This document shows positions 29,485 through 37,074 of a stretch of DNA of 64,000 nt, piece after piece. The translations under genes were made by a program, and so were the position numbers. The number at the start of each line of letters is the position of its first letter. Position 1 is the stretch's first letter. Source of the DNA: Gammaproteobacteria bacterium (GTDB taxonomy: Bacteria > Pseudomonadota > Gammaproteobacteria > UBA5861); NCBI GenBank assembly GCA_022360445.1, contig JAKSCV010000036.1, positions 62,001-126,000 of the forward strand, given 5' to 3'. The notes beneath the pieces were generated by a model, which worked only from the letters and a program-made list of their open reading frames with translations, did no database searches and was not told the origin of the DNA.

Positions 29485-30411
29485 ATGGTTTCTATCCCAT
29501 TAGATATTACGTCCCGATTTAATGTTTCGAAGCGGCTAGGTCGGCTGCCCACGGTGCTGAATGTATTATTGGTTATTCTATTGGGGTATTTGACAGCGGC
29601 GTTGGCGGTCAGTTTTTTGCCGAAAAGTCAAAGCGCAATGGCGATAAAAAGCCCGGTTTCAACAGAGCGCAACGCAGGTGCCATAAAAGGTCAGAAACAG
29701 GTTGGGAAGGTGGTGGCACAGTCTCACCTTTTTGGTCGTGCCGGCACAACGAAGAAACCAGAGACCCAAAAGGCTGACACTGCTCCAGTGACCCGACTCA
29801 ATCTTTCTCTGCAAGGAGTTTTGGCGTTTACGCCCCCCGAGATGGCAATGGCTATTATCCGCTCAGGTAATAAAGAAGAAAAAATCTACGGTATTGATGA
29901 CGAGATCGTGAACAATGTCACGTTGAAAGAAGTGCATGCCGATCGGGTCATTATCAACCGCGCTGGTAAGCTTGAAACTTTGCAATTACCCGAAAAAATG
30001 GATTCCTTTCAGGTGAAATCGGTTGCTCGTGCAACATCGAGCCGTCCTCGCACAGCTCAGAGAGCCACCAAGCCGACCCCTCGAAATCTTGAAAAGCTGT
30101 CCTCAAATCCCGGAGAGCTGAGAGCCGAGTTGGTCAAAAACCCGGCGATGTTAGCGCAGCTAGTCACAACAAAGCCCTATCGGCAGGGCGGTAAGCTTCT
30201 CGGTTATACGATCCAGCCAAAGCATCGGGAAGACATTTTGCAATCTCACGGGTTACAGGCAGGTGATGTCATCACCCAGGTCAATGGCATTCCAATCAAT
30301 AGTTCCCAACGTGGGTTACAGGCGCTTAGAAAGCTGGTTAAGGCGAACGCGATTGATCTCGTTGTATTGCGGAACGGGGCTGAAATACCACTTTCGATCT
30401 CTCTTCAGTAG
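29485..30411 (+). CDS. gspC: Type II secretion protein GspC
   Basis: 308 residues. A single N-terminal membrane anchor (LPTVLNVLLVILLGYLTAALAV, about 23-44) precedes the homology region (SHLFGRAG ... NLSLQGVLAF) and, after a basic linker, a C-terminal PDZ domain (about 235-308, with LQAGDVITQVNGIPINSSQR). GspC joins the inner-membrane platform to the secretin and may select substrate. First gene of gspCDEF. No good ribosome site is visible before ATG 29485. Confidence 0.92.
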   Translation: MVSIPLDITSRFNVSKRLGRLPTVLNVLLVILLGYLTAALAVSFLPKSQSAMAIKSPVSTERNAGAIKGQKQVGKVVAQSHLFGRAGTTKKPETQKADTAPVTRLNLSLQGVLAFTPPEMAMAIIRSGNKEEKIYGIDDEIVNNVTLKEVHADRVIINRAGKLETLQLPEKMDSFQVKSVARATSSRPRTAQRATKPTPRNLEKLSSNPGELRAELVKNPAMLAQLVTTKPYRQGGKLLGYTIQPKHREDILQSHGLQAGDVITQVNGIPINSSQRGLQALRKLVKANAIDLVVLRNGAEIPLSISLQ

Positions 30412-30526
30412 CCGTTATAAATAAATATGACACGTGCCATAATGTTGAAATGTGTTTAAGATATACTCGTAAGTCACGGAATAGACTATAAAAGAGTTGA
30501 TTACGGAGCGCTTTTTTGGTTTGTAT

Positions 30527-32950
30527 ATGGATAAGAAGAAACTGTTTAATCATTATTTTTGCCAACGATTTCAGAGCATTGCGCTTCTTTTAGTAAGCTT
30601 AATTAGCGGCTTTGGGTATTCAAGCGCATTTTCAGATACCTTTACCCTGAATTTAAAAAATGCGGATATCAGTTCATTTATTTCTACGGTATCCAAACAA
30701 ACGGGTAAAAACTTTGTAGTCGATCCGCGTGTTAAGGCCAAAGTCACTGTGATCTCTTCACGGGAAATGGACGCGGATGAGTTATATGAAGTGTTCCTTT
30801 CTGTCCTCCAGGTTCACCAGTTTTCAGCCGTTCCTACCGGGGATGTGATTAAGATTATTCCTGATGTGAGCGCCAAACAGAGTCCCGTTCCTGATCTGGT
30901 TAAAGGCTCTCGCAAAGATCAGTTAGTGACCCACGTGATCAATATAGAAAATGTGCCAGCTGCCCAGCTTGTACCCATCCTGCGTCCTTTGGTGCCTCAG
31001 CAAGGACATCTGGCGGCTTATGCGGCGACAAATGCCCTGATTATTACAGACAGGGCTGCCAATATCGGCAGAATCACAAAAATCATCAAGCGTATAGATC
31101 GCCCGGATAATGAAGAAATTGAGGTCGTGCAGTTGGAGAATGCCTCAGCTAGTGAAGTTGTACGCATTTTAGGGGCTTTAAAGCCGGCGACTAAGGCTAA
31201 AGGCGCGAATACCCCGGGTAATATCAAGCTCGCTGCTGATGAGCGAACAAACAGCATATTGATCAGTGGTGATCGGGCGGCAAGATTGCGTACACGCAGC
31301 CTCATTGCTCACTTGGATACACCCACGGAGTCAGGTGGGAATACCCGTGTTGTTTATTTGCGTTATTCTAAAGCGGAAGATTTGGCTAAGGTACTTAAAG
31401 GCGTTTCCGAAGGGCAGGCTAAAGTCGGGGTTGCCGGCCAACCTCAAACAGCTCAGGCCAGGGCGAATGCCAGCAAGCAAAAGGAATCCGTAGACATTCA
31501 GGCCGATGAGCATACGAACTCCTTGATCATCACGGCTCCTCCTGACCAAATGCGTAATATCCTGGCGATCATCCGGCAGTTGGATATTCGCCGAGCTCAG
31601 GTGCTGATTGAGGCAATTATTGCTGAAATCTCACAAAACAAATCAAATGCGCTAGGCGTCTCCTTTGCAACCAATGGCATTGATAAGGGTGCACCGGCGG
31701 GCGTTATCAATTTGGGCAACATGGCGGCCGAAATTGCCAGTGCCGTCGCCAACCCGGCTAACATTGGACTTGGCAGCACACTTGCTATCGGGGATGTCAC
31801 CGGCGATATCGACTTTGGCTTTATCGTTCGAGCGATTGCCTCAGATGCAGCTAACAATATTCTGTCGACGCCCTCGCTGGTCACACTGGATAACCAAGAA
31901 GCAGAGATCGTTGTCGGTCAAAATGTGCCTTTTGTGACTGGCCAAACAACCTCGTCGAGTAACGACAACCCCTTTCAGACAATTGAACGTCAGGATGTCG
32001 GTCTGACATTGAAGGTTTTGCCTCAAATCAATGAAGGCAACTCTATCAAGATGGATATTTCCAAGGAAATTTCCAATGTGACCAGCCAAGCTAATTTGGC
32101 CAATGCCGTTGATTTGGTCACCCAGAAAAGGGCAATTAAAACGACAGTGATCGTGGAGGATGGGCAGACACTGGTGCTCGGTGGGTTGATTGATGAAACG
32201 CTCAGAGATACTCGTGAAAAAGTTCCTCTACTTGGAGATATTCCCCTTTTGGGACGCTTATTTCAATACCGTGGGACCGAGAAAGCAAAACAGAACCTGA
32301 TGATGTTTATGCGTCCCGTCATTTTGCGTGATCGCACATTGGAGGATTACCATAGCAGTCGCAAGTATAATTTCCTTCGTACTCAGCAGTTATTAAGTGA
32401 AGAGAACAGCATTGGCCTGTTGAAAGGTGAAGGCCCAGTATTGCCGGAACTGGAAGTGCTTTTCAATAATCAACCGGTCAAGCGTTCTTCAAGTGGCCGG
32501 GAATCGGGTGAAGTTAAGCCTGAGGCCCAACTAAAAGCTCCCCTTCCAAAGCCTTTAGCGCGCCGTTCGGTTGATCCTGGTCCAGTGGCGTCACGGCCAT
32601 CCTCAGCAGGAATAGGGAATACGGTTCAGGCTGTCAGGCACAGTGAGAGTTCTGTGCAAACCCGGCTAGTCTTTGACTTGCAACAACCCGTGGCTTCACC
32701 TGTTCAAAAGTCGACAAGTCAAGCAGGCGTTGCCATTTTCCGTCTAAAAAATACCGTGCTCGGTGATAATATTACGATCCCGGCGATGCCCATTGCCCAT
32801 GTTGATAATATGGCGTTAGAGCAACGAGGTGACGATGTTTTTCTGTTTTTACGTCCAGCGGCTGATACAGCATTGAAACACTATGAACTGAATCCAGGGG
32901 CAAGCCCTTCTCATCGGTTGGTGATTGACATCATGCCCAAGAGTCAGTGA
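30527..32950 (+). CDS. gspD: Type II secretion secretin GspD with extra C-terminal domain
   Basis: 807 residues from ATG 30527. A signal peptide (to about 45) is followed by periplasmic domains N0-N3 (TFTLNLKNADISSFISTVSK; VIPL-type repeats) and the secretin core (about 360-600; VGQNVPFVTGQTT, VEDGQTLVLGGLI, LLGDIPLLGRLF) that forms the outer-membrane channel. A Pro/Ser-rich linker (about 625-705) leads into a final 100-residue domain with TRLVFDL near its start and HRLVIDI at its end, resembling an AMIN domain. GspD proteins are usually 650-700 residues, so this is an unusual extension. Confidence 0.92.
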   Translation: MDKKKLFNHYFCQRFQSIALLLVSLISGFGYSSAFSDTFTLNLKNADISSFISTVSKQTGKNFVVDPRVKAKVTVISSREMDADELYEVFLSVLQVHQFSAVPTGDVIKIIPDVSAKQSPVPDLVKGSRKDQLVTHVINIENVPAAQLVPILRPLVPQQGHLAAYAATNALIITDRAANIGRITKIIKRIDRPDNEEIEVVQLENASASEVVRILGALKPATKAKGANTPGNIKLAADERTNSILISGDRAARLRTRSLIAHLDTPTESGGNTRVVYLRYSKAEDLAKVLKGVSEGQAKVGVAGQPQTAQARANASKQKESVDIQADEHTNSLIITAPPDQMRNILAIIRQLDIRRAQVLIEAIIAEISQNKSNALGVSFATNGIDKGAPAGVINLGNMAAEIASAVANPANIGLGSTLAIGDVTGDIDFGFIVRAIASDAANNILSTPSLVTLDNQEAEIVVGQNVPFVTGQTTSSSNDNPFQTIERQDVGLTLKVLPQINEGNSIKMDISKEISNVTSQANLANAVDLVTQKRAIKTTVIVEDGQTLVLGGLIDETLRDTREKVPLLGDIPLLGRLFQYRGTEKAKQNLMMFMRPVILRDRTLEDYHSSRKYNFLRTQQLLSEENSIGLLKGEGPVLPELEVLFNNQPVKRSSSGRESGEVKPEAQLKAPLPKPLARRSVDPGPVASRPSSAGIGNTVQAVRHSESSVQTRLVFDLQQPVASPVQKSTSQAGVAIFRLKNTVLGDNITIPAMPIAHVDNMALEQRGDDVFLFLRPAADTALKHYELNPGASPSHRLVIDIMPKSQ

Positions 32951-32951
32951 C

Positions 32952-34478
32952 ATGGCGGAAACAGAATTCAGTGTGTCAAATGACAGTAAGCTGCCTTACT
33001 CTTTTGCCAAGCGTCATGGCGTATTAATTGAAAGCCTCGAGCCCAGTGTCACACATGTAGTACATCGCCCCGGTGTACAGGCATCCACCTTATTAGAGCT
33101 GCGGCGCAAAACCAAACGTCCGCTGGCGCTCAAACCGGTAGATGCAGAAACCTTCAACGGCTTACTCGCCCGCAGTTATGAAGGCAGCACGCATCAGGCC
33201 ATGGACATTATTGGTGACCTCGATAGCGACACGGACTTAAATAGCTTGGTGGAAGCTTTACCAGAACCCGAAGACCTGATGGAATCTGAGGATGATGCAC
33301 CGGTGATCCGATTGATTAATGCCATTCTGTCAGAATCCATTAATAAAGGTGCCTCGGATATCCACATCGAACCGTTTGAACAACGCCTCAGCATCCGCTT
33401 CAGGGTGGACGGCGTGATGCAGGAAATGTTAGAGCCGCCTCGGAAAATGGCGCCTTTGCTGATTTCGCGTATCAAAGTCATGGCCAAACTGGATATTGCC
33501 GAAAAGCGTTTGCCTCAAGATGGTCGAATGTCCCTTCGTTTGGCCGGACGGCCTGTCGATGTTCGGGTGTCGACGCTACCTTCGGGGCATGGTGAGCGTG
33601 TTGTTTTACGTTTATTGGATAAGCAGGCTGGCCGCTTAGATATTGATCACCTGGGAATGTCAAACGTTGCCAAAAATCACCTGCTGGATGTGCTCAAGAT
33701 GCCGCATGGCATTGTGCTGGTTACCGGGCCAACCGGTGCCGGTAAAACAACCACGTTATATGCGGCACTGGGTCGGTTGAATACGAGCCGAAATACGATA
33801 CTCACTGTGGAAGACCCCATCGAATATTATATTGACGGCATTGGACAAACACAGGTCAATAACAAAGTTGACTTGACCTTTGCAAAGGGCTTGCGAGCGG
33901 TTTTGCGGCAAGATCCCGACATCGTCATGGTCGGTGAGATTCGTGACTTGGAAACAGCCGAAATTGCTGTGCAAGCAAGCTTAACCGGACACCTGGTATT
34001 ATCCACATTGCATACCAACAGTGCTGTGGGCGCAGTCACGCGTTTGCGCGACATGGGTATTGAGGCCTTTTTACTGTCTTCCAGTTTGATTGGCGTGGTT
34101 GCTCAGCGTCTGGTCAGAGTTTTGTGTCCTGACTGTAAAGTTCCACATTTTCCGAGCGAAGCCGAGCGCGAAGCCATCGGAATCACTGTTAAAAGGGACG
34201 CTAGCGGTCAGTTCAGTTCGGATTCAGTACCTGAAATTTTTGGCCCGCAAGGCTGCGACCAATGCAACCACACCGGTTATGTGGGTAGAACCGGTACCTA
34301 TGAAGTGATCCCGATTAATGACCATCTGCGTAACATGATTCATGATGGTGTGGGTGAATACGAAATGGAAAAATATGCAAGAACCATTTGCCCGGGCATT
34401 ATGGATGATGGCCGTCGACTGGTGCTTGACGGGCTGACCTCTGTTGAAGAGGTCTTGCGCGTAACGCGCGAAATGTAA
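32952..34478 (+). CDS. gspE: Type II secretion ATPase GspE
   Basis: 508 residues from ATG 32952, one base after the gspD stop. The N-terminal domain contacts GspL in other systems. The ATPase core has Walker A (TGPTGAGKTTTLY), the Asp box (LTVEDPIEYYIDG), Walker B (DIVMVGEIRDLETAEIAVQA) and His box (GHLVLSTLHTNSAVGAVTR). A four-cysteine zinc loop follows (CPDC ... CDQC), as in GspE. It powers pseudopilus assembly from the cytoplasm. Notably, the other platform genes gspL and gspM are not nearby. Confidence 0.95.
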   Translation: MAETEFSVSNDSKLPYSFAKRHGVLIESLEPSVTHVVHRPGVQASTLLELRRKTKRPLALKPVDAETFNGLLARSYEGSTHQAMDIIGDLDSDTDLNSLVEALPEPEDLMESEDDAPVIRLINAILSESINKGASDIHIEPFEQRLSIRFRVDGVMQEMLEPPRKMAPLLISRIKVMAKLDIAEKRLPQDGRMSLRLAGRPVDVRVSTLPSGHGERVVLRLLDKQAGRLDIDHLGMSNVAKNHLLDVLKMPHGIVLVTGPTGAGKTTTLYAALGRLNTSRNTILTVEDPIEYYIDGIGQTQVNNKVDLTFAKGLRAVLRQDPDIVMVGEIRDLETAEIAVQASLTGHLVLSTLHTNSAVGAVTRLRDMGIEAFLLSSSLIGVVAQRLVRVLCPDCKVPHFPSEAEREAIGITVKRDASGQFSSDSVPEIFGPQGCDQCNHTGYVGRTGTYEVIPINDHLRNMIHDGVGEYEMEKYARTICPGIMDDGRRLVLDGLTSVEEVLRVTREM

Positions 34479-34483
34479 TCCTG

Positions 34484-35704
34484 ATGCCTGCGTATGAATA
34501 CAAGGCGCTAAATGAAAGTGGACGCGAAGTTAAAGGTGTTCTGGAAGGGGATAACGCACGCCAAATCAGGCAGCAGCTGCGAGAAAAGAAACTAACGCCC
34601 CTCTCCGTTTCGGAAGGCTCATCACGGCCTAGAAGTGCTTCGGGCAGTAAGAAAAAGGCGGTGAGAGGTGGCCTTAGTACTGCAGAACTTGCTTTGATTA
34701 CCCGCCAGGTAGCAACCTTATCAGCGTCAGGTTTGCCATTGGAAGAAGCACTCTCAGCGATCGCCAGTCAAAGCGAACGCCAGAAAACAAAAGCGCTCAT
34801 ACTTTCTGTTCGTTCGCGAATATTAGAAGGGCATACCTTTGCATCCGCTTTATCTGATTACCCGAAAGTTTTTCCGGAAATTTACCGTGCAACCGTTGCC
34901 GCAGGAGAACAATCAGGGCACCTGGATGCGGTGCTTGAAAGGCTAGCGGACTACACCGAAGACCGGCAATCGGTGAAACAAACTGTGACCAAAGCCTTAA
35001 TGTATCCCATGGCACTGGTCATTGCCGCAATTGCGATTGTCTCTTTACTACTGGCCTATGTTGTCCCACAAGTTGTAGGTGTATTTGACAGCCTGGATCA
35101 AGAGCTGCCGGCGCTGACTCGTATGTTGATTATGGCCAGCGACTTTTTACGCGCCTGGGGACTGGGTGTATTGGCCGTTATTGTTATTGTATTTCTCCTG
35201 TTCAGGCGCGCATTGAGTAATGAGGCATTCCGGCTCAAGGTCGATACGTTTTATCTCAAGATTGGTTTTGTCAGCAAGCTGATACGCGCATTTAACAGCG
35301 CACAGTTTGCACGGACACTGAGTATTCTCGCATCCAGCGGGGTTCCTGTACTTGAAGCGCTCAGTATTGCCTCTGCGGTGTTAACCAACCGATTGATGCG
35401 CCAAGCGGTAAAAAACGCCGCCGTTCAGGTACGGGAAGGCTCCAGCTTGAGTGCGTCTTTGAAGCGAACAGGGCTTTTCCCGCCTATGATGCTTCACTTG
35501 ATTGCTAGTGGTGAGTCATCCGGGCGCCTGGGTGATATGTTGGAAAAAGCGGCCACACAGCAAGAAAGAGAGCTGGATTCTGTGCTCACAATTTTTCTCG
35601 GCTTGTTTGAGCCGCTTATTATTCTGGTGATGGGTGGTACCATCTTGATCATCGTTTTAGCGATCCTTTTGCCTATCTTCCAGCTCAATCAACTGGTGAG
35701 CTAG
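34484..35704 (+). CDS. gspF: Type II secretion inner-membrane protein GspF
   Basis: 406 residues. Starts with the family marker MPAYEYKALNESGREVKG and holds two T2SF repeats (LITRQVATLSASGLPLEEAL at about 67; FARTLSILASSGVPVLEALS at about 272), each followed by membrane helices; the last helix is LFEPLIILVMGGTILIIVLAIL. GspF is the platform protein at the base of the pseudopilus. It begins five bases after gspE. The gene expected next, gspG, is missing: the stop overlaps a convergent OmpA-domain gene by four bases. Confidence 0.95.
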   Translation: MPAYEYKALNESGREVKGVLEGDNARQIRQQLREKKLTPLSVSEGSSRPRSASGSKKKAVRGGLSTAELALITRQVATLSASGLPLEEALSAIASQSERQKTKALILSVRSRILEGHTFASALSDYPKVFPEIYRATVAAGEQSGHLDAVLERLADYTEDRQSVKQTVTKALMYPMALVIAAIAIVSLLLAYVVPQVVGVFDSLDQELPALTRMLIMASDFLRAWGLGVLAVIVIVFLLFRRALSNEAFRLKVDTFYLKIGFVSKLIRAFNSAQFARTLSILASSGVPVLEALSIASAVLTNRLMRQAVKNAAVQVREGSSLSASLKRTGLFPPMMLHLIASGESSGRLGDMLEKAATQQERELDSVLTIFLGLFEPLIILVMGGTILIIVLAILLPIFQLNQLVS

Positions 35705-37074
35705 AGGCCTTCGGGTAATAGCTTGATCTCGATGCGGCGGTTACGTTTTCGGCCCTCGGGTGTGTCATTATCTGCGATAGGATGATATTCACCCAACCCG
35801 ATAGCCAATAACCGTTTAGGAGAAAGACCTTTGTTGGTCTCCAACAGGTAGCGTACAGCGGAAGAGGCCCGTGCGGCAGATAGTTCCCAGTTACTCGGGT
35901 AAACCTTCACTAAGCTGGATGAGCGAATGGGCAGATTATCGGTGTGCCCTTCGACACTGATGCGCCGATTGGGTGATTTTTCCAATGAGTCAGCGATTTT
36001 ATCCAGCACAGAAAAAATGGATTGATTTAAACGCGCGGAGCCACGCGCAAAAAAGGCGTCGACGTCTAAAGTGATCACCGCATAATCATCTTTAACCCGT
36101 TGGATTGCGACCGATGCTGCCATTTTTTCATTTTCCAGCTTCCGCTGTAATTCATCCAAGGCGTTGCTGAGTTGTTTTTTTTCAGCTTCAAGTGCGGCAT
36201 TTTTGCGTTTGAATTCGCTGCCGGTTTTTTCCAAATCAACGCCTAAGCCTTTGAGTTGAGCGCGCAAATGTTTGCGTTCATTCAACAAGAGCTTGAGGTC
36301 ATCTTTCATGGTACTTTCAGCCGCATTTTTAGCGGCAAGCTGGCCTTTTAACTGAGTAATCTCATTTAATAATTCATCAATTTGAGCACTGAAGTTGTTC
36401 CGTTCCTTAAGCAGATTTTCCTTTTCGTTAAATGCTTCGTCCCGGGCCGCGACAGCGGATTCAAGTTCCCGCTCGAGCACGACTGATTGTTTTTCCAGTG
36501 TCTCAATAGTGCTGGTTAGCAGTGTTTTTTCTTTGGCCAGTGACTGCTTGAGTTCCTGGTATTGGTTTCCCAGCCGTTCCGCTTCTGTCTTATAACGTTC
36601 ACGCTCAATGCCGAGCAGTTCTTTTTCGGTTTCCAAAGAGGTTCGGCGGACTTCCGCGGTATTCAACTCTTCTTGAAGAAGAGAGGTTTCTTTACGTAAA
36701 AGTGAGAGTTGATTGTTTAACAGTTCTTTATCGGCGCTTGCAGTTGCTAATTTCTCCGTGAGCCGTTTATTACTGGAGTTGGCTTCTGCCAGTTTGTCAC
36801 CCAAACGCTTCAGACGGTTTTCCAGGCCGTTAAAGTCTCCTTTGATTTCCTGAGTTGATTGCAGCAGTTTGTCGCGATTATTTTCCAGTTTGCTCAAACG
36901 TTCGCGCAGTTCGGCTGTTTCGCTGACATACTGTTTTTTGATGCTCGATAGCTCTTGTTCCTGCCGTGTTGAAGTTGCGTGTTCGCCGAAGTAAAACCAC
37001 CAGCCAACCGTTGCGATAACCACAGAAAAAATCAGCAGTAGCCAGGGGGCAATATTTGAGTTGCGTTCTTCCAC
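35701..37074 (-). CDS. Coiled-coil protein with C-terminal OmpA/MotB domain
   Basis: 457 residues. A short cytoplasmic N-terminus, one membrane span (APWLLLIFSVVIATVGWWFY, about 8-27), a very long coiled coil (about 35-315, Glu/Lys/Leu-rich heptads) and a peptidoglycan-binding OmpA domain (about 340-457: VEGHTDNLPI, SNWELSAARASSAVRYL, a final KRNRRIEIKL). It should be anchored in the inner membrane and reach across the periplasm to the cell wall. There is no MotB plug helix or proton-channel Asp, so it is probably not a stator. Convergent with gspF, 4-bp overlap. Function unknown. Confidence 0.85.
   Translation of the reverse strand: MEERNSNIAPWLLLIFSVVIATVGWWFYFGEHATSTRQEQELSSIKKQYVSETAELRERLSKLENNRDKLLQSTQEIKGDFNGLENRLKRLGDKLAEANSSNKRLTEKLATASADKELLNNQLSLLRKETSLLQEELNTAEVRRTSLETEKELLGIERERYKTEAERLGNQYQELKQSLAKEKTLLTSTIETLEKQSVVLERELESAVAARDEAFNEKENLLKERNNFSAQIDELLNEITQLKGQLAAKNAAESTMKDDLKLLLNERKHLRAQLKGLGVDLEKTGSEFKRKNAALEAEKKQLSNALDELQRKLENEKMAASVAIQRVKDDYAVITLDVDAFFARGSARLNQSIFSVLDKIADSLEKSPNRRISVEGHTDNLPIRSSSLVKVYPSNWELSAARASSAVRYLLETNKGLSPKRLLAIGLGEYHPIADNDTPEGRKRNRRIEIKLLPEGL

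Follow-up and report, generated by a model that had tools for sequence, protein, structure and literature searches.

The present analysis concerns gspD, the gene for the secretin of a type II secretion system (T2SS), in a 64,000-nucleotide stretch (the window) of contig JAKSCV010000036.1 from a gammaproteobacterium of the uncultured lineage UBA5861. The question raised by this locus is why the encoded protein continues so far beyond its secretin core and what the additional sequence could be doing there. A first-pass annotation had proposed that the last 100 or so residues of this GspD, reached through a Pro/Ser-rich linker, resemble an AMIN domain. We find that the tail shares ancestry with the AMIN domain, a cell-wall-binding module, that opens the AmiC amidases of cell division. 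It is a diverged member of that type, and it is under purifying selection in both species that carry it.

A divergent AMIN-type domain at the C-terminus of GspD

The gene occupies 30527..32950 on the forward strand, with its ATG at 30527, and encodes 807 amino acids that score 577.5 bits with the GspD equivalog model of NCBIfam (TIGR02517, cut-off 351). Pfam and NCBIfam place N0, N1-N3 and the secretin core at residues 41-602 (30647..32332, forward strand), the Pfam scan assigning N0 to 41-110, three stretches to Secretin_N and 437-601 to Secretin, with the core ending near residue 602. The tail beyond the secretin core, counted as 210 residues, compares with a median of 76 across 86 GspDs, confirming that the protein is unusually long. 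It begins with the S-domain position and the Pro/Ser-rich linker of about 95 residues (together residues 603-700; 32333..32626, forward strand), a stretch predicted from composition and modelling confidence to be disordered. From residue 701 or so a folded domain follows (residues 701-807; 32627..32947, forward strand, or 32627-32950 with the stop codon), in which the motifs TRLVFDL (712-718) and HRLVIDI (796-802) do lie at opposite ends as the annotation had it. The NCBIfam PilQ model reaches 237.5 bits on GspD, under its own cut-off of 284; identity as PilQ was rejected on the grounds that the AMIN-like domain stands after the secretin core and not before N0, and that the gene lies in a gsp operon. 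A separate 706-amino-acid frame with two AMIN matches is taken as this genome's own ordinary PilQ.

Stock models did not suffice to identify the tail. Pfam AMIN (PF11741) gave 14.2 bits, below the gathering cut-off of 20.5, which is a detection threshold and not a biological definition; scans of the tail alone against Pfam and NCBIfam gave nothing except this sub-threshold match, and phmmer against PDB sequences gave no match. Homology was therefore shown with profiles derived from AmiC. In a tail-only search of 94 genomes of the class, matches besides the GspD of a sister species fell in frames mostly of 400-460 amino acids (best E 2.6e-8), and most of the translated matches were amidases of the AmiC kind. 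All four AmiC-type proteins checked, including this genome's own, carry Pfam AMIN together with Amidase_3, and the tail can be aligned to the entire AMIN domain of such proteins at about 28% identity, with 12 of 25 near-invariant positions kept. A hidden Markov model (HMM) built from 12 AmiC AMINs only gave 34.2 bits for GspD (E 1.1e-7 in a 100,000-sequence space) and 27.5 bits for the sister-species GspD; on the tail it gave 35.9 bits, as against 12.6 bits for the best of 5,000 shuffles. Comparison of the tail with an AMIN alignment that excluded it, using hhalign, returned E 9.1e-12 across 102 columns. The hhalign and shuffle statistics speak strongly against chance resemblance. All three checks suggested by the first-pass annotation, by profile, by structure and by survey of other GspDs, came out in favor of AMIN, although within the profile check the stock Pfam model by itself did not reach its threshold.

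Structure prediction points the same way. AlphaFold2, run on the single tail sequence without an alignment, produced a nine-strand all-beta domain with a predicted local distance difference test (pLDDT) score of 73. On residues 603-807 the pLDDT was about 80-93 from residue 697 or thereabouts to the end, and almost everywhere in 603-696 it stayed under 50; the model thus has a disordered linker leading to a C-terminal domain that is folded, and the tail itself is not disordered. The sole Foldseek match in the PDB below E 0.001 was AmiC 4BIN (E 8e-4 and 5e-4, probability 1.00, TMq, the TM-score on the query, 0.61); the next-best entries included the PilQ AMINs 4AQZ and 4AV2, and the N-terminal domain of PflA was also matched. 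Because no alignment entered the model, this result is more than a restatement of the sequence argument, and the predicted fold of the tail is the AMIN beta-sandwich. Known secretin topology would place the domain in the periplasm; a location outside the cell, as a lid or surface module of the channel, which has no support beyond its suggestion in the annotation, is very improbable.

Distribution, constraint and origin of the tail

The genome of the window is a draft (3.46 Mb, 97.9% complete, 110 contigs), and in the only other genome of the genus compared, the metagenome-assembled genome UBA5861 of a sister species, GspD ends in a tail 95% identical to this one. Between the two species the ratio of nonsynonymous to synonymous substitution rates (dN/dS) was 0.036 in the core (residues 1-602), 0.36 in the linker and 0.097 in the tail, where the 19 nucleotide differences brought only 5 amino-acid changes (binomial p about 1e-5 on a neutral expectation). 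These figures bear on the possibility that the tail is a mere passenger, captured not long ago and of little importance to the protein, as might be thought from its presence in a single genus among the genomes compared and from the fast evolution of the linker before it. The low ratio in the tail itself, the few replacements and the intact state of the domain in both species make a passenger decidedly improbable.

An assembly chimera was also considered, the assemblies being drafts and the sister gspD containing runs of N. There are two such runs, and on either side of each a short peptide is repeated (DNQEAEI at one, AVRHSE at the other), a pattern suggestive of faulty scaffolding; with their duplicated flanks they inflate the open frame of the sister GspD to 942 amino acids. 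Both runs lie outside the AMIN, however, the same fusion is present in two separate assemblies and gspE comes next in both, so that a chimera, or for the statistical reasons given above a chance likeness, is exceedingly improbable.

GspD was surveyed in overlapping sets of genomes, namely 94 relatives, 369 members of the class and 398 members of the phylum, which yielded a few hundred GspDs. Sequences were examined for the best-scoring GspDs and for unusually long frames (137 distinct), the remaining listed frames being judged by length only. A C-terminal AMIN was present in the window genome and its sister and absent from the 135 other distinct frames, including those of the closest relatives, and no separate AMIN gene was seen beside tail-less GspDs in the flanking DNA examined. 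Other long GspD tails (G002, G018, G039, G087, G239 and G341) were considered as AMIN candidates and rejected, being of low complexity on reading; that of G002, from another family, contains a run of about 18-19 lysines and, after it, acidic residues. In a tree of 136 GspD cores the two tailed proteins formed a clade with support 1.0, and their nearest neighbours by distance were GspDs of 661-665 amino acids with no tail. Since the neighbours are tail-less and the tailed pair is monophyletic, the simplest account is a gain of the domain on the stem of the two-species clade. As to its source, the tail scored 8.1 bits against the genome's own AmiC and 0.6 against its own PilQ in phmmer, versus 34.5 and 31.6 bits against AmiCs of other families (genomes G003 and G061). 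The tail is nearer to AmiCs of other families, and the view that gspD was recently fused to the amiC of this genome is therefore unsupported. Scans of viral contigs found no AMIN relatives.

The secretion system around gspD

The T2SS genes are arranged in two clusters and the system is complete. Within the window gspCDEF are consecutive (29485-35704), all on the forward strand: gspC at 29485..30411 (308 amino acids, with a T2SSC homology region, PF11356, and a PDZ domain; TIGR01713 105.5 bits, cut-off 101.6), then gspD, directly after it gspE at 32952..34478 (508 amino acids; TIGR02533 683 bits), and gspF at 34484..35704 (406 amino acids; TIGR02120 509 bits). The second cluster, on contig C70, contains gspG, gspJ, gspK, gspL, gspM and gspN, with reading frames present at the expected places of gspH and gspI. 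Convergent to gspF, on the reverse strand at 35701-37074, is a gene for a 457-amino-acid coiled-coil protein that ends in an OmpA-family domain, likely a peptidoglycan binder; the sister species has this protein at the corresponding site with 97% identity.

GspB was not found in the genome, the best match (14.3 bits) lying inside gspC. Nor was GspA; the two PG_binding_1 proteins detected are L,D-transpeptidase-like and endolysin-like by sequence. Searches of the genome for pilotins of the AspS and PulS/OutS families were likewise negative. The failure to detect GspA, GspB or a known pilotin would suit a secretin with its own wall attachment, and no causal link is claimed. That the tail is a simple substitute for GspAB is weakened as an explanation by genome G057, whose tail-less GspD is 62-64% identical and which is likewise without a detectable GspB.

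Proposed role of the tail and known systems

In P. aeruginosa the AMINs of PilQ are peptidoglycan binders that steer the pilus machine to septa and poles (PMC5285504), and in PilQ they are required for its polar recruitment in M. xanthus (PMC10653833). For this reason the favored reading of the GspD tail is that it probably tethers the secretin to peptidoglycan, with a bias toward septal or polar wall that we infer by analogy. The flexible linker would join the AMIN-type domain to the GspD C-terminus, and a 15-subunit channel would then extend 15 flexible arms into the periplasm immediately below the outer membrane. Such arms may bind peptidoglycan, probably that of septa or poles where stem peptides are depleted. 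They could keep GspD monomers there until the channel has assembled, and would later tether the finished channel to the wall. A more specific version, in which the channel is placed at septal or polar wall by its own AMIN and this is the first T2SS secretin targeted as PilQ is, may be advanced only tentatively.

Several results weigh against tethering. In addition to the sub-threshold Pfam score and the tail-less GspD of a genome in which GspB is likewise undetected, the tail departs from AmiC AMINs at 13 of the 25 near-invariant positions, almost all of them in the two middle strand motifs; the first and last motifs survive essentially unaltered, those in the middle (RVVIDL-like and LRVVLDL-like) are gone, and the ligand-binding face may be altered as a consequence. 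Because these two motifs are lost, the tail is termed divergent and its peptidoglycan binding is a fair inference from AMIN family biology. The main rival explanation, that the fold has been re-used for binding a protein, draws on the same loss of two of four conserved strand motifs. It draws also on the position of the tail after the S-domain place in a genome where no known pilotin family was found, and on the Foldseek match to PflA, which serves as a scaffold in the periplasm for the flagellar motor of Campylobacter. Nevertheless the closest homologues of the tail are AmiC AMINs, and two motifs and 12 of the 25 near-invariant positions are kept, so that we regard a protein-binding role as unlikely and prefer tethering.

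The presence of this domain has two implications. First, a 2023 study of PilQ described the secretins of T2SS and of type III secretion systems as being without AMIN, linked this to dispersed localisation, and suggested that the presence of AMIN could be a predictor of localisation for machines other than type IV pili (PMC10653833). The GspD described here is an exception to that stated absence and, having acquired an AMIN, a natural test of the idea; the AMIN-like tail may decide where the T2SS sits in the cell, and, if it does so as in PilQ, the proposed rule that AMIN in a secretin means polar or septal placement would extend beyond type IV pili by way of a domain at the opposite end. Secondly, the domain is relevant to the way in which T2SS secretins that have neither GspA/GspB nor a pilotin pass through and grip peptidoglycan, a question open in the literature (PMC10329019). 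A full-text literature search found no paper on a C-terminal AMIN domain, though an earlier mention may exist.

Among known systems, the AMIN of AmiC (PF11741; 4BIN) is most similar, with full-length homology, the TRLVFDL and HRLVIDI motifs intact and the top structural match, but it is N-terminal on an amidase, whereas the copy in GspD is C-terminal on a secretin and has lost the middle motifs. PilQ, the secretin of the type IVa pilus, resembles this GspD as a secretin bearing AMIN, but has one to three N-terminal AMINs before N0 and serves type IV pili, whereas the present protein belongs to a T2SS and has a single domain after the secretin core. The GspA/GspB scaffold (ExeAB, OutB) similarly links a T2SS secretin to peptidoglycan, but through separate inner-membrane proteins that bind the N-terminal end of the secretin and that were not detected in this genome. 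The closest precedent for a wall-binding module on a T2SS secretin is the N-terminal SPOR of Legionella LspD, from a system without GspA/GspB, for which a role as wall tether has been proposed (PMC6617341; PMC9239104). Like LspD, this GspD has its own predicted peptidoglycan-binding module, but the predicted SPOR of LspD and the AMIN of GspD are unrelated and lie at opposite ends, so that the GspD tail, if it binds as its family does, would be the second wall-binding module taken up by a T2SS secretin.
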